Of a DNA stretch of 46,928 bases, positions 5,509 through 46,928 are shown in pieces. The notes beneath the pieces are model-generated. The model saw only the letters and a list, made by a program, of their open reading frames with translations, was not told the origin of the DNA and did not search any database. The DNA is from an uncultured Elusimicrobiales bacterium (GTDB lineage Bacteria > Elusimicrobiota > Elusimicrobia > Elusimicrobiales > Elusimicrobiaceae), in the NCBI GenBank assembly GCA_944324115.1, contig CALUVB010000013.1, forward strand, positions 1 to 46,928, in the 5' to 3' direction. Position 1 is the first letter of the stretch. The number at the start of each line of letters is the position of its first letter. The position numbers and the translations under genes were made by a program.

Positions 5509-5844
5509 TTTGACGGTCCAGAGAGCCGCCTTTAGCTTAACCGCTTTAGGAGGAACTTCCGGACTCCGCAGGGAAATGCGCCTTGCGAAAGCAAGGGACA
5601 CGCGGGATAAAATCCGCGCGTACGGAAAGTGCCACAGAAAACAAACCGCCTTCGGGCAAGGGTGAAAAGGTGCGGTAAGAGCGCACCGCGCACAAGGTAA
5701 CGCGTGCGGCAAGGCAAACCCCGCATGGAGCAAGGCCAAATATGTCCATACGTGTCCCGCGTCAGAGGCAGAGTAGGCCGCTTAGAGTAATGGCTCTCCC
5801 GGCTGTACAAACAGCTGACAGAATCTGGGGTATGGGCCGTCAAA
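5509..5844 (+). ncRNA. rnpB: RNase P RNA (bacterial type A-like)
   Basis: About 336 nt. The 5' helix P1 (TTTGACGG at 5509-5516) pairs with CCGTCAAA at 5837-5844, defining both ends. The universally conserved core is present in order: GGAGGAACTTCCGGACTCC near the 5' side (usual form GAGGAAAGTCCGGGCTCC), GTGCCACAGAAAACAAACCGCC, AAGGGTGAAAAGGTGCGGTAAGAGCGCACC, AGGTAACG, GGCAAACCCC, GGAGCAAGGCCAAATA, then GTAGGCCGCTTAGAG near the 3' side. It matures the 5' ends of tRNAs together with RnpA. A bidirectional terminator starts 5 nt after the 3' end. The conserved GAAAGTCC segment reads GAACTTCC here, a local departure from consensus. No clear dedicated promoter was found, so transcription from the rnhA promoter is possible. 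Confidence 0.95.
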
Positions 5845-5848
5845 CACT

Positions 5849-5880
5849 TAAAAAGCCGCTCTCTTACGAGCGGCTTTTTA
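5849..5880. terminator. Bidirectional terminator between rnpB and pilin pseudogene
   Basis: AAAAAGCCGCTC-TCTTAC-GAGCGGCTTTTT: T runs on both strands. It ends rnpB on the plus strand and the pilin pseudogene on the minus strand. Because of a frameshift, the pseudogene's open frame now runs through this hairpin. Confidence 0.92.
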
Positions 5881-6403
5881 TAACACAAAATCGCTGCCGT
5901 TATATGTTCCAAATGCTTGGCAAAAATTTTTCCCTCGTCATTATAATAGCGGCACACAATATTGCCGTCATTTAAATAAGAAATGGCATATGTTGTATTT
6001 ATCGGCAAACGTTGACAGGTAGCCAACGTACCCAACCAGCAACCACTTGTATCCGCTCTGCAAGCTGGCCGGCAGAAAAAGTTTTTCGTCTGAAAGCCTC
6101 TTGTTCCCTGATAAGTGAGCGGCGTAGCGGGAAAGGATACGGCTAAAACTCCGAAGTCATCGGCATATTCGTCGGTGGACATATAATATCTTTTTTCCGC
6201 GTCACCAATCGTGCCGACCAATACCACAGCTTCCGCCGCGCGGCTTTTCTCTACCGCTCTTTCATATTGAGGTAAAGCAGTGACGGCCAAGGTGCCAATA
6301 ATCAGCACCACCAACAGTTCAATCAGCCTAAAACCGCCAAAAGCGCATTTTACGCGAGCTTTACACTGGAGAAAATTATCTTTTGTTGATAAATCTTGCT
6401 CAT
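5878..6403 (-). pseudogene. Frameshifted type IV pilin-like gene
   Basis: The pilin N-terminus is recognisable as FGGFRLIELLVV-LIIGTLAVTALPQYERAVEKSRAAEA: one Val codon is missing and Thr2 is Arg. The expected ATG (6401-6403) starts MSKIYQQKIIF as in sister pilins but meets a stop (TAA) before the pilin frame, so there is an indel in the leader. Near the C-terminus another indel removes the stop: in the adjacent frame the sequence reads GTYNGSDFVL followed by TAA at 5878-5880, directly before the terminator, whereas the current frame runs on through the terminator and into antisense rnpB. Its promoter spacer is also shortened (T6, 11-nt spacer). All this points to a dead copy. An extended functional product translated from a non-ATG start cannot be excluded but is unlikely. 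Confidence 0.8.
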
Positions 6404-6409
6404 ATGCAA

Positions 6410-6432
6410 AATTTACCCAAAAAAGAGGGCAA
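6410..6432 (-). promoter_or_regulatory. Decayed pilin promoter (T6 spacer tract)
   Basis: Minus strand: TTGCCC (6427-6432), spacer TC-T6-GGG of only 11 nt, TAAATT (6410-6415), six bases, ATG. The intact sister promoters have a 16-nt spacer with T12 and GA. Such a short spacer should not support sigma-70 transcription. Confidence 0.6.
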
Positions 6433-6495
6433 GCCTTCTCTATTCTTGCCAGTCCAAACAACAAAAACAATTCCTTCAACGGATTTTCCGTAAAT

Positions 6496-19132: not shown

Positions 19133-19687
19133 CTATTTCAGCTCCCAACACTTACAACCCCCATTTGCGCAGCCGCCATCGGAAGGCTCTCCTACAGCGC
19201 CCAACATCTCGCACATAGCGGTACCCTTCCAATTTGAAGCGGCATACGAACAACAGCGGGTCATTCCATTAAACATAAAAAGCAAAGACACCCCTCCCGG
19301 CAAACTGCTTACCGTAACACGGTCTGCGCCGATGTTTTCTGCATTTCCTGAAGCCAAGGCGTAAGAGAACTTCTTCACTACTAAAGTGCGGGGGTCTGAC
19401 AGACGGCTTTCCGCCGGCAAATCAGCTCCTAATTTTTCATAAGAATCGGCATATTCTCCATTGGCCATATGATATAGTTTCTCCGCATTACGAAAATGAT
19501 TGCCTAGAATAAATGCTTGAGACAGACGGCTCCGGGTCACTGCTTTCTCATACTGAGGCAAAGCTACCGCGGCCAATATGCCAATAATCAGCACCACCAC
19601 CAACAGTTCTATCAGCGTAAAGCCGCCATATTTGACTTTAGAGAGATTTTTAACCAATTTTTTGTTTTTTGATATATTTTTTATCAT
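19133..19687 (-). CDS. Type IV pilin-like protein (prepilin, GFTLIELLVV)
   Basis: 184 aa. A short positively charged leader (MIKNISKNKKLVKNLSKVKYGG) precedes the prepilin peptidase site and the mature N-terminus FTLIELLVVVLIIGILAAVALPQYEKAV, with Glu5 intact. The mature globular part is variable and Cys-rich towards the end (CCSY, CEMLG, CANGGCKCW), suggesting disulfides. It would be inserted in the inner membrane and assembled into a pilus or pseudopilus. ATG 19687 is 6 nt after the -10 of a T12 promoter cassette and has no ribosome site. Its N-terminal coding DNA is almost identical to the other pilin genes here while the C-terminal part is unrelated, the pattern of a diversifying family. 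No pilus assembly gene is nearby. Confidence 0.88.
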   Translation of the reverse strand: MIKNISKNKKLVKNLSKVKYGGFTLIELLVVVLIIGILAAVALPQYEKAVTRSRLSQAFILGNHFRNAEKLYHMANGEYADSYEKLGADLPAESRLSDPRTLVVKKFSYALASGNAENIGADRVTVSSLPGGVSLLFMFNGMTRCCSYAASNWKGTAMCEMLGAVGEPSDGGCANGGCKCWELK

Positions 19688-19693
19688 AGGCAA

Positions 19694-26785: not shown

Positions 26786-27298
26786 TTAAAATTCATAAAT
26801 TTTGCACAGGTTGTCACTGCAATTTTGTTTAAAAACTCCGCCGGCAGAGATACAGGCTTTTTCGGCCGATTTGTTTCCATCGTATGCATAGCACCAATGC
26901 TTGTTCTTATAACTAGGGTGGTTCTGATAATCTAAGAAGAAAGCAATTCCTACATTATATCCCCCTCTATTTCCACAATACACAGAGCTGCTTTGAGTCA
27001 AATTCACTGAGCAATGAGCGGACTGGGGTATAGAAATATCCAAATCCGCTATATCAGAAGCATAAATGCCTTCAGACATCCAATAACGTTCTTGCGCCTC
27101 TTTTAATGTACGGGTCCAAATCAACAATTCCGTCATTCGGCTGCGTGTAACCACTGCTTGATACTGCGGCAAAGCCACCGCCGCCAAGATGCCGATGATT
27201 AGCACCACCACCAACAGTTCTATTAGGGTAAATCCACCGAAGCGGCGCCGCTTCGGTATTTGAGAGCAAAAATGATTAATAAAAAACTGATAATACAT
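26786..27298 (-). CDS. Type IV pilin-like protein
   Basis: 170 aa. The leader (MYYQFFINHFCSQIPKRRRFGG) ends at the prepilin peptidase site, followed by FTLIELLVVVLIIGILAAVALPQYQAVVTRSR. The head domain has cysteine pairs (CSVN, YCGNRG, WCYAYDG, ACISAGG, CSDNLC). It shares the near-identical N-terminal coding sequence and T12 promoter with the other pilin genes, but its head is unrelated. ATG 27298 is six bases after TAAATT, with no ribosome site. The gene stands alone, tail to tail with the REC-GGDEF gene. It is probably an alternative major or minor pilin. Confidence 0.88.
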   Translation of the reverse strand: MYYQFFINHFCSQIPKRRRFGGFTLIELLVVVLIIGILAAVALPQYQAVVTRSRMTELLIWTRTLKEAQERYWMSEGIYASDIADLDISIPQSAHCSVNLTQSSSVYCGNRGGYNVGIAFFLDYQNHPSYKNKHWCYAYDGNKSAEKACISAGGVFKQNCSDNLCKIYEF

Positions 27299-27304
27299 AT
27301 GCAA

Positions 27305-37487: not shown

Positions 37488-38060
37488 TTATTGGAAGAAC
37501 CAGCGATCCCCTTCTTTTACTGCACCCGCTTTTTTACATAATTCTTCTTCTGTATAAGAAGAATTGCTGGAGCACCAAAACTTATTATAAGCCCACCCGC
37601 CATCATAGTTAGAACCGCCTGTACACACCCAATATCCTGCACCAATCCGCTGCCCGCATATTAATGAATCCGTTCCAGGAGCACATCCTCCATCTTCCGC
37701 ACAAATTCTCTCATCTAAAAAATAAACGAAATGCTGCGTAGTCAGAGAGGAGTTTTCTTTTCCGCCTCCCCATGTGCCGTACTCCCCGGGAATCGTAATA
37801 TCCAAATCCGACAACACCTCTGTAGTTTCTCCATTTGCTAGACCATAGGCTATCTCTGCATTTAACAAGGCTCTTGTAATCACCTTGGCCTCCGCCACAC
37901 GGCTTTTCTCTACGGCTTTTGTATACTGCGGCAACGCCACCGCCGCCAAAATACCGATAATCAGCACCACCACCAACAGTTCTATCAACGTAAAACCGCT
38001 TATTGTGCGTCTTGCGGGTTTTGCTACATCAAGAATGATTTTTTGATAAATTTTGTTCAT
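37488..38060 (-). CDS. Type IV pilin-like protein
   Basis: 190 aa. Leader MNKIYQKIILDVAKPARRTISG, then FTLIELLVVVLIIGILAAVALPQYTKAVEKSRVAEAK. The head domain is acidic, Gly/Ser/Tyr-rich and has several cysteines (ICAEDGGCAPG, LICGQ, WVCTGG, FWCSS, LCKKAG). ATG 38060 lies six bases after TAAATT of a T12 promoter. The first codons mirror the promoter in a 17-bp perfect inverted repeat (38039-38055 and 38064-38080). The gene is flanked by two hairpins that share 20 identical bases, as if it were a discrete cassette. Assembly proteins (PilB, PilC, PilD) are not in the window. Confidence 0.88.
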   Translation of the reverse strand: MNKIYQKIILDVAKPARRTISGFTLIELLVVVLIIGILAAVALPQYTKAVEKSRVAEAKVITRALLNAEIAYGLANGETTEVLSDLDITIPGEYGTWGGGKENSSLTTQHFVYFLDERICAEDGGCAPGTDSLICGQRIGAGYWVCTGGSNYDGGWAYNKFWCSSNSSYTEEELCKKAGAVKEGDRWFFQ

Positions 38061-38066
38061 ACGCAA

Positions 38067-42124: not shown

Positions 42125-42589
42125 TTACGGATTGGCTGTATCATCGGCAGCACATTCATCTGTCGCCGGAATCATCACATCACCACAAAGAGCGTAATTT
42201 TTATTCAACGCCTCGCAACCGGATCCTTCGCAACAAATTACTCCTGTCTTATAGGAAGGGATTTTAAGTACATAATTACCCGAATTAGTATTGCGACTGG
42301 CTGCAGCGCCAGTGGCAGATAATGTGTATATGTAGTTTGCTGTTTTTGCCTGGCTATCGCTGATTCGAGCATATGAAGCCGTGGGGATACGGCTAAAACT
42401 GACAGTATATTTCTGACCCAATGCACAACGTTTTTCTTGCTCCGAACGGATAGAGGTCAGCATGTTTTCTGCCTCCGTTGTACGGCGCGTTTCCAATACA
42501 CGAGAAAACTTGGGCACCGCCACAGAAGCCAACACGCCCAGCACAATAACTACCACTAAAAGTTCCGTCAAGGTAAAACCTTTCTTCAT
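42125..42589 (-). CDS. Minor pilin / pseudopilin-like protein (distinct subclass)
   Basis: 154 aa. A very short leader (MKKG) precedes FTLTELLVVVIVLGVLASVAVPKFSRVLETRRTTEAENML. Glu5 is present, but IE is replaced by TE and ALPQY by AVPKF, so it differs from the other pilins. The head has cysteine pairs (KRCALG, ICCEGSGCEALN, YALCGD). Unlike the other pilins, it has a conventional TTGGAGGACAG ribosome site and no T12 promoter or inverted repeat. It is therefore expressed differently and may be a constant minor pilin or pseudopilin. It is divergent from the ispH fusion gene. Confidence 0.85.
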   Translation of the reverse strand: MKKGFTLTELLVVVIVLGVLASVAVPKFSRVLETRRTTEAENMLTSIRSEQEKRCALGQKYTVSFSRIPTASYARISDSQAKTANYIYTLSATGAAASRNTNSGNYVLKIPSYKTGVICCEGSGCEALNKNYALCGDVMIPATDECAADDTANP

Positions 42590-42746
42590 CTGTCCTCCAA
42601 TATAACCTAATGGCTTATCTACATTACAAACTCTTTGTATATTGTACCACAAGAACACCTTTCCCGTATCCTTATCATCATTATAAACGATATTGTATGT
42701 TTGCCAAGGCCCCTTGCCGGACAAGCAATCCATATTCCCAATTTTC

Positions 42747-42752
42747 TATAAT
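42747..42752 (+). promoter_or_regulatory. -10 box of the ispH fusion gene, six bases from ATG
   Basis: TATAAT (42747-42752), GTAATT, ATG 42759. No ribosome site. The -35 is not clear. This fixes the start at MDKEQGVIV and not at upstream in-frame codons. Confidence 0.55.
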
Positions 42753-42758
42753 GTAATT

Positions 42759-44447
42759 ATGGATAAAGAACAAGGCGTTATCGTCGCCAAATCTGCCGGC
42801 TTCTGCCCCGGGGTAAAAGGAGCTATAGATAAAGTACTGGAACTGGAAGCTTCCGGAAAGAAGCCCGTCTACACCCTTGGCCCTTTGATTCACAACCGCC
42901 AAGTAACCGACATGTTGGAGGCCAAGCAAATTACTTCCGTGGAGCGGCCAGACCAGGCAACCGATAAAAACGGCGTATTGGTAATCCGGGCCCATGGCAT
43001 TACACCGGCCTTCCGACAGGAAGTCATGCAAAGCGGTATGGAAGTGGTAGACGCCACCTGTCCGCTGGTCAAACATGCCCACGACGTCATTTCCCAATAT
43101 GCCCAACAAGGATATCATACGGTAATTGTGGGAGACAGCGGGCATGCCGAAGTAATTGGACTGCTGGGTTGCACACAAGGCAAAGGCGTAGTGGTGTCTG
43201 GTCCGCAGGAAGCGGAGAAATTACCCTCTTTTGATAAAGTAAACGTAGTGGCGCAAACCACCCAAAAAGAAAGCGTTTTCTTGGAAACGGCTGAAGTAAT
43301 CAAACGCAAATCTGCCGTCTGCCAAATATCCAACACCATTTGCCACCCGACTAAATTGCGCCAAAGCGAAACGATACAAATGGCAAAAAATGCAGATTTA
43401 GTCATTGTGGTGGGCGGCAAGCACAGCGCCAATACCGCCCGGCTGGCGTTATTGTGCCGCGAGTTGGCCCCCGCCGTGCTGCATATTGAAACGGAAAGCG
43501 AACTGACTCCGCAGCAAGTATTGGCCCCCAAACGTATTTTTATTACCGCCGGAGCGTCTACCCCCAATTGGGTCATCGACCAAGTGGCAGATTGGGTACG
43601 TCAAACCCGCAAACACCGGGGTTTTGCTTTCATAGGCATGCTGCAGCGGCTGTGGGCAAAAGGCGTTTCGTATTCTTTTTATACCGCTTTTGCCGCCATG
43701 GCTTTGACTTATGTATGTTTGAAACTGGAAGGGTTGCACAGTCAGTGGAAACCGCTCGCGTTTTCGTGGTTATTTGTATTTAGCTTAACTACAGTGAACC
43801 GCGCCTTTGAAGACAAAGCCCGCCCCGCCGGGCGGCTTTCCGCACTGCCGGGCTTCATTGCGGCCGGGCTGGGGCTTTTGGTGGCTTGGCTGATGGGGCC
43901 GGAAGTGTTTGGGTTGTCTGCGGCTTTTATAGCGGCCGGATTGTTCTATCCATTCAGACATCTTTTAAAATTAAAAATTTTGGCTTTGCCCGGCACAAAA
44001 GATTTTTTTACAGCGCTGGGCTGGGGGTTTTCCTGCGCTTTTTTGCCGGCTTTTGCCAATGGCATGGTATTGCGCAAGGCGGTCTATTTGGCTATTTTTT
44101 ACGCCGTACTGCTGGTATTTATGCGCTCGGTAACGTTAGGCTTCACCTCCGCCAATAAAGATTTAATGATTGGCAAAGAAAGTTTTTATAAAGCTTTTGG
44201 CATTGGCAAAACCAAATTAGCGGTAGCTGTCCTGTTGATCATGCTGACCGCCGTGCTGGTTACTTTGCTGATGATTACATGGAAGCCTGCCTTAGTGGCT
44301 ATGCTGCTGCTGGGTAATCTCTACACCCTATTTATAGTAATATACTATTATAGCCACCCTGCCTCACGCGGGGTGAAGGAAGAAACGCTGATTGACGGAC
44401 AATTTTTTGTATTGTGGCTGCTGGCGTGGTTTTCCCGTTTTATTTGA
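42759..44447 (+). CDS. ispH: IspH (HMB-PP reductase) fused to a C-terminal UbiA-like membrane domain
   Basis: 562 aa. Residues 1-285 are a full 4Fe-4S IspH, last enzyme of the MEP isoprenoid pathway. Cluster ligands are C16 (AGFCPGV), C101 (DATCPLV) and C195 (NTIC). Substrate-site residues include H45, H79, H129/E131 (HAEVIG), QTT (166-168) and GASTP. Residues 290-562 add eight or nine membrane helices. VNRAFEDKARPAGR (346-359), YPFRHLLKLKILALPGTKDF and RSVTLGFTSANKDLMIG recall the two Asp-rich loops of UbiA prenyltransferases, but the Asp pattern is degenerate. An isoprenoid-making enzyme would thus be tethered to a possible isoprenoid-using or -binding membrane module. IspH family confidence is high, UbiA relation moderate. 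pfk follows after 14 nt and rlmB after that, suggesting one operon. Confidence 0.85.
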   Translation: MDKEQGVIVAKSAGFCPGVKGAIDKVLELEASGKKPVYTLGPLIHNRQVTDMLEAKQITSVERPDQATDKNGVLVIRAHGITPAFRQEVMQSGMEVVDATCPLVKHAHDVISQYAQQGYHTVIVGDSGHAEVIGLLGCTQGKGVVVSGPQEAEKLPSFDKVNVVAQTTQKESVFLETAEVIKRKSAVCQISNTICHPTKLRQSETIQMAKNADLVIVVGGKHSANTARLALLCRELAPAVLHIETESELTPQQVLAPKRIFITAGASTPNWVIDQVADWVRQTRKHRGFAFIGMLQRLWAKGVSYSFYTAFAAMALTYVCLKLEGLHSQWKPLAFSWLFVFSLTTVNRAFEDKARPAGRLSALPGFIAAGLGLLVAWLMGPEVFGLSAAFIAAGLFYPFRHLLKLKILALPGTKDFFTALGWGFSCAFLPAFANGMVLRKAVYLAIFYAVLLVFMRSVTLGFTSANKDLMIGKESFYKAFGIGKTKLAVAVLLIMLTAVLVTLLMITWKPALVAMLLLGNLYTLFIVIYYYSHPASRGVKEETLIDGQFFVLWLLAWFSRFI

Positions 44448-44461
44448 TTTTTGGAGGAAAT

Positions 44462-45562
44462 ATGGGGATTAAAAAAATCGGTATTTTAACTGCAGGCGGA
44501 GACTGCCCCGGCTTAAATGCCGTGGTGCGCGCAGTAAGCAAAAATGCACTGCGCCATGGAGTAAAAGTATTGGGTTTTAAAAACGGCTTTGACGGATTGG
44601 TCCGCAACGAATTTATTGAAATTGATGAACATATCGTATCAGGTATCCTCACCTTAGGCGGTACTATTTTAGGCACCAGCAATTTGGCCAATCCGTTCCG
44701 CTACACGCTGCCCCCGTTTGGCACGCCGGAAAACCCGCGGGATTTGTCATCGGTTGTATTGCATAATTTCAAAGAAAACAATTTAGACGCGTTGATTGCT
44801 ATCGGCGGAGACGGTACCCTGCATATGGCCCAGCAATTTATAGAACTGGGCATGCCTGTGGTAGGTGTACCCAAAACAATAGACAATGATCTTTCCTGCA
44901 CGGATTTAACCTTTGGATTTGACTCGGCAATGGCAGTAGCCACCGATGCGGTGGACCGCATTCATACCACCGCCCAAAGCCATCACCGCGTGATGATTAT
45001 TGAAACTATGGGCCGATATGCGGGCTGGATTGCGCTGCGTTCTGCCATAGCCGGCGGCGGAGACATCGTGCTGATACCGGAAATTCCTTACAATGAGCAA
45101 ATCATCATAGACGCTATTTTGGACCGCCGCTCCAAAGGCAAGAACTTCAGCATTATCGTGGCGGCTGAAGGCGCAAAAAATGAGGCCGGAGAACAAGCCG
45201 TTACCCGCACGGTGGCTGCTTCCACTGATCCGGTACGCTTAGGAGGCATAGGCTTTAAAATCAGCAATATGGTAGAAACGGCCTGCCATGTAGAAAGCCG
45301 CGTGGTCGTACTGGGGCACTTGCAGAGAGGCGGCACGCCTACACCGTTTGATCGTTGGCTTTCCACCCGTTTTGGCGCACGAGCGATGGATTTGGTAATG
45401 GAAGGCAAGTTTGGCTACATGGTAGCCTTGAAGGGGCTTTCTATTGGAGAATGTAAGATTTCCGATGCGATCTCTAAACTCAAATTGGTAGATCCGAATG
45501 GAGAAGAAGTCAAAACCGCGTTGGAAGTAGGCATGAGCTTTGGTTCGGCCCAAATCGGTTAA
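44462..45562 (+). CDS. 6-phosphofructokinase (ATP- or PPi-type; mixed signature)
   Basis: 366 aa. Phosphorylates fructose-6-phosphate in glycolysis. ILTAGGDCPGLNA (8-20), GGDGT (115-119), PKTIDND (137-143), TTAQSHHRVMIIETMGRYAGWIA and HLQRGGTPTPFDRWLS are the phosphofructokinase motifs. In ATP-dependent PFK, Gly stands both in GGDG and before TIDND; in PPi-dependent PFK, Asp and Lys do. Here Gly118 is paired with Lys138, the mixed form seen in some ATP enzymes of Actinobacteria. The donor is therefore undecided. A membrane PPase gene 7 kb away makes PPi economy relevant. ATG 44462 has GGAGG just upstream; the in-frame extension into ispH is not used. Confidence 0.92.
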   Translation: MGIKKIGILTAGGDCPGLNAVVRAVSKNALRHGVKVLGFKNGFDGLVRNEFIEIDEHIVSGILTLGGTILGTSNLANPFRYTLPPFGTPENPRDLSSVVLHNFKENNLDALIAIGGDGTLHMAQQFIELGMPVVGVPKTIDNDLSCTDLTFGFDSAMAVATDAVDRIHTTAQSHHRVMIIETMGRYAGWIALRSAIAGGGDIVLIPEIPYNEQIIIDAILDRRSKGKNFSIIVAAEGAKNEAGEQAVTRTVAASTDPVRLGGIGFKISNMVETACHVESRVVVLGHLQRGGTPTPFDRWLSTRFGARAMDLVMEGKFGYMVALKGLSIGECKISDAISKLKLVDPNGEEVKTALEVGMSFGSAQIG

Positions 45563-46387: not shown

Positions 46388-46928
46388 TTAATCCAAATAC
46401 CACCAATAGTATGCGCTATTTGTAGGGGAAACTATTTTATTATCATGCCCGGCTAGGAATTTGCATAACTCCTTGCCTTTAGTGTATCCTTGATTGGTTG
46501 AACAGTATAACTTTTTTCCGGGAACGCCAATCTCTTGCGAGTAAGGATAAAAAATAATTCCCCAATCTTGGGTTAAATTGTCCGCCTGTAAACGCTCGCG
46601 CGAAATATACAAAGTATATCTGAAATATTTTGTTGAAAACCAAACACTGGAGCTTGCTGAGATATTGTTTGGAACAACCGATAACTGGTCAAAACTCGTT
46701 GGAAAGGTACCATTGGCCATCATATATTCTTCCACCGCAGCCGATAAACTGCGCATCGTAACCACAGCTTCCGCGGCACGGCTTTTTGTTACCGCTTTTG
46801 TATACTGCGGCAAGGCAATAGCCGCCAAAATGCCAATTATCAGCACCACCACCAACAGCTCTATCAGCGTAAAGCCGCCAAAATCGGCTTTTCGGAAACT
46901 TTTAATACGAAAAATATTTTTTTGATAT
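46388..46928 (-). CDS. Type IV pilin-like protein (5' end beyond window)
   Basis: At least 179 aa in the open frame. The leader end YQKNIFRIKSFRKADFGG is visible and open to the window edge. It is followed by FTLIELLVVVLIIGILAAIALPQYTKAVTKSRAAEAVV. The C-terminal head has CSTNQGYTKGKELCKFLAG. The start codon, and therefore the promoter, lie beyond position 46928. The first visible minus-strand bases (ATATCAAAAAAA) match the right arm of the inverted repeat at the other pilin starts, so a T-tract promoter with TTTTTTGATAT should lie just outside. Confidence 0.88.
   Translation of the reverse strand, partial: YQKNIFRIKSFRKADFGGFTLIELLVVVLIIGILAAIALPQYTKAVTKSRAAEAVVTMRSLSAAVEEYMMANGTFPTSFDQLSVVPNNISASSSVWFSTKYFRYTLYISRERLQADNLTQDWGIIFYPYSQEIGVPGKKLYCSTNQGYTKGKELCKFLAGHDNKIVSPTNSAYYWWYLD

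Follow-up and report, generated by a model that had tools for sequence, protein, structure and literature searches.

Results

An IspH gene continued by a membrane domain

The window (the whole stretch of DNA analysed here, 46,928 nucleotides of contig CALUVB010000013.1 in assembly GCA_944324115.1) comes from an uncultured gut bacterium of the order Elusimicrobiales. The fusion gene lies on the forward strand at positions 42759-44447, where an open reading frame runs from an ATG at 42759 to a TGA at 44445-44447 and encodes 562 residues with no internal stop. Residues 1-285 (42759-43613, +) form an IspH (HMBPP reductase) domain, and residues 286-562 (43614-44444, +) a C-terminal membrane domain of predicted UbiA fold. 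IspH catalyses the final step of the MEP pathway, by which bacteria make isoprenoids.

Residues 7-280 match the LYTB/IspH family PF02401 with 281.5 bits (cut-off 24.5), residues 7-281 match TIGR00216 with 265.2 bits (cut-off 187.85), and the predicted fold matches 3f7t with a Z score of 31.7 over 280 residues. The domain keeps Cys16, Cys101 and Cys195, which we take to be the Fe-S cysteines after E. coli IspH, together with His45, His79, His129, Glu131, Thr167, Ser223, Asn225 and Ser267, presumably the substrate site by the same comparison. All of these residues are invariant in a 77-sequence alignment of the fusions. The initial annotation had described a complete IspH followed, without a stop, by a UbiA-type domain, and this description is borne out by the single 562-residue frame, by IspH profile scores above their cut-offs and by the UbiA fold described below.

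Downstream lies a 6-phosphofructokinase-type gene (44462-45562, +; product named by eye from its sequence) with a GGAGG ribosome site. The fusion ATG itself (window 42745-42761) has no Shine-Dalgarno sequence and a TATAAT lies a few bases upstream, an arrangement in which the transcript could be leaderless. Six minus-strand genes, each standing alone, encode proteins whose N-terminus resembles that of type IV prepilins; they are scattered through the window (5532-6479, 19133-19693, 26786-27304, 37488-38066, 42125-42733 and 46388-46855), and one of them lies directly upstream of the fusion and divergent from it.

The C-terminal half has a predicted UbiA fold

Residues 365-532 match UbiA PF01040 with an E-value of 4.3e-5 and 23.4 bits, below the cut-off of 34.2, and the isolated C-terminal domain also misses this gathering score, at 25.5 bits. 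The two Elusimicrobiota domains listed singly score 23-26 bits, whereas five relatives from other phyla all pass, at 38-66 bits. Though below its cut-off, PF01040 is still the best-matching family. An unrelated transporter family, which the initial annotation had raised as the alternative, was not the best match: the top Pfam and NCBIfam matches are UbiA/prenyltransferase families, with a single weak match to an ABC exporter. Searching the PDB by sequence with the Elusimicrobiota domain gave no useful match, and the canonical relatives gave a weak match to chlorophyll synthase and nothing else. We found no relatives in viral_contigs, and a profile search of the window's genome returned no further UbiA-family match.

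Structure prediction with AlphaFold2, using 77 sequences, gave a model of the full protein (m37277f56fd43) with a mean pLDDT of 85.9 and a pTM of 0.60, at which the placing of IspH relative to the UbiA-type domain is not reliable; a model of the domain alone (m0267b4a52956) reached a pLDDT of 81.1 and a pTM of 0.81. The C-terminal domain is predicted to begin with an amphipathic helix (residues 290-304), followed by nine membrane helices spanning residues 307-561, in line with the eight or nine noted earlier. The UbiA homologue 4od5 matches the full model with Z 18.9 and the domain alone with Z 19.2, in each case over 245 residues at 3.1-3.2 A. Soluble prenyl synthases score clearly lower (Z about 14), while the best 15 Foldseek matches are all UbiA-family structures and 8djk, the UBIAD1-HMG-CoA reductase structure, matches with Z 16.1. 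The structure prediction thus answers the question of fold that the initial annotation had posed, and together with the profile match it supports the UbiA-type identity of the C-terminal half. Lysine and arginine counts of the loops fit a cytoplasmic position for both IspH and the mouth of the domain, and the proposal that the C-terminal half places IspH at the membrane is likely on the basis of the predicted nine-helix domain and these charges.

IspH-UbiA fusions in other phyla

Fusions of this type have been known since 2015, and the window protein is a member: its UbiA-type domain lies C-terminal to IspH and is homologous to the Desulfobacterota ones in an alignment and a joint tree. Rao et al. 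(2015, Chem Sci, PMC4746011) described 47 IspH-UbiA 'Rosetta stone' fusions with two DXXXD sites, mainly from the sulfate-reducing Desulfobacterales, could not express an active full-length protein, and put forward localisation, sensing or local supply of IPP/DMAPP as possible roles. The main text of that paper makes no mention of Elusimicrobiota.

Besides Elusimicrobia, our scan of named genome contigs matched MAGs labelled Nitrospirae, Deltaproteobacteria, Smithellaceae, Deferribacteres, Nitrospinota, B38 and Sumerlaeota, and all 17 of the non-Elusimicrobia loci that were translated are IspH fusions. By profile, the domain occurs in 92 of 247 genomes (about 37%) from the phylum of a Deltaproteobacteria-labelled MAG (G308, taken as Desulfobacterota), in 9 of 60 from that of a Nitrospinota-labelled genome (G305) and in 2 of 148 from that of a Nitrospirae-labelled genome (G298); the taxon labels are those of the records, and a genome without a label is presumed to belong to the phylum of the centre genome. 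One Desulfobacterota-type genome encodes, besides a fused copy, a relative of that UbiA domain which stands alone (L251, G345:C6). To extend the search to other phyla, one row of alignments A4 and A5 was made from L074 by writing the canonical motif into it; this row was a search probe and nothing more, and our conclusions come from real sequences.

In the domain tree, the fused UbiA domains of Elusimicrobiota group as a single clade (support 100), set among those from other phyla. A Nitrospirae-labelled clade is their sister (support 84), a relationship that we treat as a lead only, because this is a quick tree with several long branches. The IspH tree, from which six loci were left out, groups the fused IspHs of other phyla together (93/96), two unfused ones included, and places the IspHs of the Elusimicrobia class, both fused and secondarily unfused, in one clade (100/100). 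The remaining stand-alone IspHs, from Elusimicrobiota, Desulfobacterota and Nitrospirota, sit in other clades. This topology suits an old fusion lineage of IspH, and is also compatible with more than a single origin.

Loss of the aspartate motifs in Elusimicrobiota

The two degenerate loops quoted in the initial annotation map to UbiA motif I (NRAFED, residues 347-352) and motif II (KDLMIGKESF, residues 467-476). In our alignments and motif table, the remnant of the motif I loop spans residues 347-362 (43797-43844, +; NRAFEDKARPAGRLSA) and the remodelled motif II loop residues 456-483 (44124-44207, +), starting RSVTLGFTSANKDLMIGKESFYKAFG. Motif I, NDXXDXXXD, is replaced by NRAFEDKAR, in which Asn347 alone is kept and Glu351 takes the position of the motif Asp; motif II, DXXXD, is replaced by SANKD, in which Asp468 alone is kept. 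The motif I loop is also shorter in the window's family than in other phyla.

For comparison between lineages, we used our own sequence alignment to score five positions: the motif I Asn, the motif I Asp (+4), and three motif II acids, D1, D2 and D3, of which D2 and D3 make up DXXXD. The window protein has N347, E351, G461, S464 and D468, and the typical Elusimicrobiota state is likewise N/E/G/S/D. Among 83 Elusimicrobiota sequences the motif I Asn is kept in 81; the Asp position holds Glu in 67 and Asp in only 2, with Glu, Ser, Gln or Gly in 81 altogether. At motif II, D1 is Gly or Ser in all 83, D2 is never Asp and D3 is always Asp, so that D..D...D has become G/S..x...D throughout, with two of the three acids gone. 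A new pattern, D...G.E..YK..G, is common to the Elusimicrobiota motif II loop. The loss of the canonical Asp pattern claimed in the initial annotation is therefore real at both motifs, and is shared class-wide rather than peculiar to this protein.

Relatives in other phyla show graded states. All 10 Nitrospinota fusions have N, D, D, D, D and all 4 sequences of the Nitrospirae-labelled clade have N, E, D, S, D, which is intermediate. Desulfobacterota fusions nearly always keep D3 and have Asp or Glu at D1, with D2 and the motif I Asp lost in some subclades. On the domain tree, loss of an acidic D1 is one change and marks Elusimicrobiota; D3 changed twice and the other positions several times. 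Among individual Desulfobacterota-type fusions, L187, L192, L194 and L196 have lost the motif I Asp and mostly kept motif II. In the B38-type fusions L191 and L200, the second and third motif II Asp are replaced (by V/I and N), which by alignment is a separate route of motif loss.

These substitutions bear on whether the domain is still an active prenyltransferase, with a metal site rebuilt from Asn347, Glu351, Asp468 and perhaps Glu474 and Asp415, that passes an IspH-derived prenyl group to some acceptor. Such an enzyme would be in keeping with the acidic and basic residues conserved around the mouth of the active site, with Tyr397, which aligns with Tyr139 of Archaeoglobus UbiA (AfUbiA), and with the intermediate state of the Nitrospirae-labelled sister clade. 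A single missing Asp is compatible with catalysis, as chlorophyll synthase itself has Ser aligned at D2. We nevertheless consider an active enzyme somewhat unlikely, given the replacement of the first motif II acid in every Elusimicrobiota sequence and of the motif I Asp in nearly all, the shortened motif I loop of the window's family, and a genome with no quinone-type UbiA. In AfUbiA, N68 and D72 of motif I and D198 and D202 of motif II hold Mg; of mutations at N68, D72, D198, D202, R22 and K146, four of the six abolish GPP binding, with N68 and D72 needed for it and D198A and D202A binding 45- and 21-fold more weakly (PMC4106721).

Distribution and clean losses of the domain

A fusion restricted to one assembly, which would have counted against the initial annotation, was not what we observed. 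Within the window's family, IspH occurs in 77 of 80 genomes and the C-terminal domain in 43 of the 80. The fusion is also present in L034 (G001:C1, genus g2), whose genome is one contig of 1643562 bases. Across the phylum sample the domain is present in 82 of 295 genomes, essentially always joined to IspH, and all 82 carriers belong to four families of the window's own class. Frames in the family's carriers run through both parts over about 520-710 codons in all but G057, a fragmented assembly in which IspH is split between contigs; the phylum carriers also have long frames, with G231 cut by contig ends.

Save for a few fragments at contig ends, IspH frames of non-carriers are about 280-345 codons long. 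A phosphofructokinase-type gene follows directly after their IspH stop, the same neighbour as that 3' of the window's fusion, and no remnant of the domain was detected by profile in the unfused loci read. This reading of clean loss comes from 30 of 32 loci in which the IspH frame was read, with one locus near a contig end (L281) lacking the phosphofructokinase-type neighbour. In a tree of IspH and its neighbour (66 rows), unfused clades are nested among fused ones, and the state must have switched between the two four or more times. Such a count by itself carries no direction; we read the changes as losses because the genera and families that branch outside (L034-L036, L044, f2, f7 and f8) are fused. 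An unfused IspH of family f7 (L314) also falls inside a fused clade. By this phylogenetic reading one family has seen four or more clean losses of the domain, each of which left IspH on its own, and the function of the domain would then not be essential.

Such dispensability would suit a pure membrane anchor that places IspH near membrane-bound users of IPP/DMAPP, a localisation role in keeping with that suggested by Rao et al. (PMC4746011). We regard a pure anchor as quite unlikely, since it would have no need of the specific polar residues that are near-invariant at the cytoplasmic mouth across the class (see below).

Trans-prenyl synthase family members occur about once per genome whether the domain is present or not, and this family was rejected as a partner lost along with the domain. 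A canonical IspH-UbiA within Elusimicrobiota was likewise rejected for the roughly half of 30 loci at which the UbiA frame could be read: none of these frames is an IspH fusion, and they are either heme-O-synthase-like, in some cases with a CtaA-like part attached, or stand-alone UbiA of another kind. Two Elusimicrobiaceae genomes clearly match the UbiA family, G033 with E 1.4e-20 and G291 with E 9.9e-17, and the IspH of G033 is unfused.

Conservation and selection

The UbiA-like domain is under strong purifying selection. Its median dN/dS within the genus is 0.124, compared with 0.078 for IspH, values for which synonymous sites are partly near saturation. Conservation reaches at least 93% at 20 positions in the set of 83 Elusimicrobiota sequences (effective number about 37), and the majority of these positions fall in cytoplasmic loops or adjacent helix ends; neither the linker nor the periplasmic loops are conserved in this set. 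The conserved positions include N347, Y397, K414, D415, G421, W422, R456, S457 and D468, and further G472, E474, Y477, K478, G481, E542, D546 and F549. Cytoplasmic loop 4-5 (residues 397-416; 43947-44006, +) holds the near-invariant Tyr397, Lys414 and Asp415 (LPGTKD), and cytoplasmic loop 8-9 with the start of helix 9 (residues 542-549, ETLIDGQF; 44382-44405, +) holds the near-invariant Glu542, Asp546 and Phe549. Tyr397 is kept in 97% of the class and corresponds to the highly conserved active-site Tyr of UbiA, its equivalence to AfUbiA Tyr139 following by sequence reasoning only.

Motif loss, a weak PF01040 score and repeated deletion are what a decaying relic of an IspH-UbiA fusion, with no present function, would leave behind. 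The low dN/dS within the genus and the long-term conservation of the domain in intact frames speak against such decay, which we judge very improbable.

Discussion

The explanation that best accounts for these data, and which we hold with middling confidence, is that IspH is tethered at the membrane by a domain of UbiA fold which has ceased to be a canonical Mg-dependent prenyltransferase and instead docks or senses an isoprenoid (diphosphate) ligand. A functional IspH would be held at the inner face of the cytoplasmic membrane; the domain, having lost most of its metal-binding Asp residues, would have given up canonical Mg-dependent prenyl transfer, and its conserved polar mouth on the cytoplasmic side, probably a pocket for an isoprenoid ligand, would bind that ligand there. 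It may thus act as a docking or sensing module, much as UBIAD1 senses GGPP beside HMG-CoA reductase. We infer the tethering, the loss of transferase activity and the ligand binding from several lines of evidence. The UbiA fold appears in two models, and the domains form one well-supported clade among fused domains. Loss of transferase activity is favoured because the first two motif II acids are replaced in all Elusimicrobiota sequences and motif residues of AfUbiA matter for GPP binding, and a retained function because of the low dN/dS and the conserved cytoplasmic mouth. The lack of another UbiA-family match in the window's genome and the UBIAD1-HMG-CoA reductase precedent point the same way. 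Class-wide loss of metal-binding residues in a domain that is still conserved suggests a role in binding, sensing or anchoring. Lost motifs, a strongly constrained mouth and a dispensable domain together favour a non-canonical role in membrane docking and ligand binding, and possibly in sensing. Against this explanation, a metal site could be assembled from Glu351, Asp468, Glu474 or Asp415; the Ser of chlorophyll synthase at D2, the repeated loss of the domain and the uncertain placing of the two domains in the model count against it as well.

The initial annotation had envisaged a prenyl-using or prenyl-sensing module and asked whether loss of the Asp pattern signals a new activity. We retain the isoprenoid-binding part of this proposal. 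The new activity was not borne out: a non-catalytic role in binding or anchoring fits at least as well for a domain that is dispensable and has apparently been lost at least four times.

The Elusimicrobiota proteins share their domain order, similar length and a homologous C-terminal domain with the fusions of Rao et al., but have one motif II Asp and usually Glu in motif I where those were reported with two DXXXD sites. With UbiA prenyltransferases (Aeropyrum 4od5, Archaeoglobus 4tq3 and chlorophyll synthase) they share the nine-helix fold, the motif I Asn, the Tyr and the last motif II Asp; unlike them, the Elusimicrobiota domain has neither NDXXDXXXD nor DXXXD, scores below the Pfam cut-off and is fused to IspH. 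IspH-RPS1 fusions of Clostridia and Fusobacteria (Rao et al., 2015) also extend IspH at its C-terminus, but with soluble ribosomal protein S1 repeats. UBIAD1 associates with HMG-CoA reductase and dissociates from it at high GGPP (PMC9579336). That pair, in which a protein of UbiA fold is coupled physically to a reductase of isoprenoid synthesis, offers an analogy, but UBIAD1 belongs to the eukaryotic mevalonate pathway and is a protein in its own right with catalytic activity, and sensing in the fusion is argued by analogy only. In a stronger and more speculative version, which we think unlikely, the domain would be a UbiA-fold pseudoenzyme serving as a built-in isoprenoid-diphosphate sensor that adjusts IspH, an MEP counterpart of HMG-CoA reductase/UBIAD1 whose metal site was lost stepwise with an intermediate still extant.

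Three things appear to be new with respect to the open-licence papers searched: the Elusimicrobiota form poor in Asp, the stepwise series of its relatives and the repeated clean loss of this form. If prenyl transfer has been given up while selection is kept, the domain would qualify as a UbiA pseudoenzyme; we found no open-licence paper containing both 'UbiA' and 'pseudoenzyme', which is weak evidence. The MEP pathway is studied as a drug target, and the proposed mechanism, if true, would add a possible feedback point to it. The graded natural variants (Nitrospinota, Nitrospirae-labelled and Elusimicrobiota) and the natural domain deletions make the function of IspH-UbiA fusions, a question since 2015, directly testable.

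Finally, the fusion neighbourhoods share no acceptor-pathway gene that we could find. Some Desulfobacterota loci have prenyl-synthase-like and dxs-like genes upstream of the fusion; at L192, L194 and L196 the fusion gene follows prenyl-synthase-like, dxs-like and TlyA-like genes, all of these products being named by eye.
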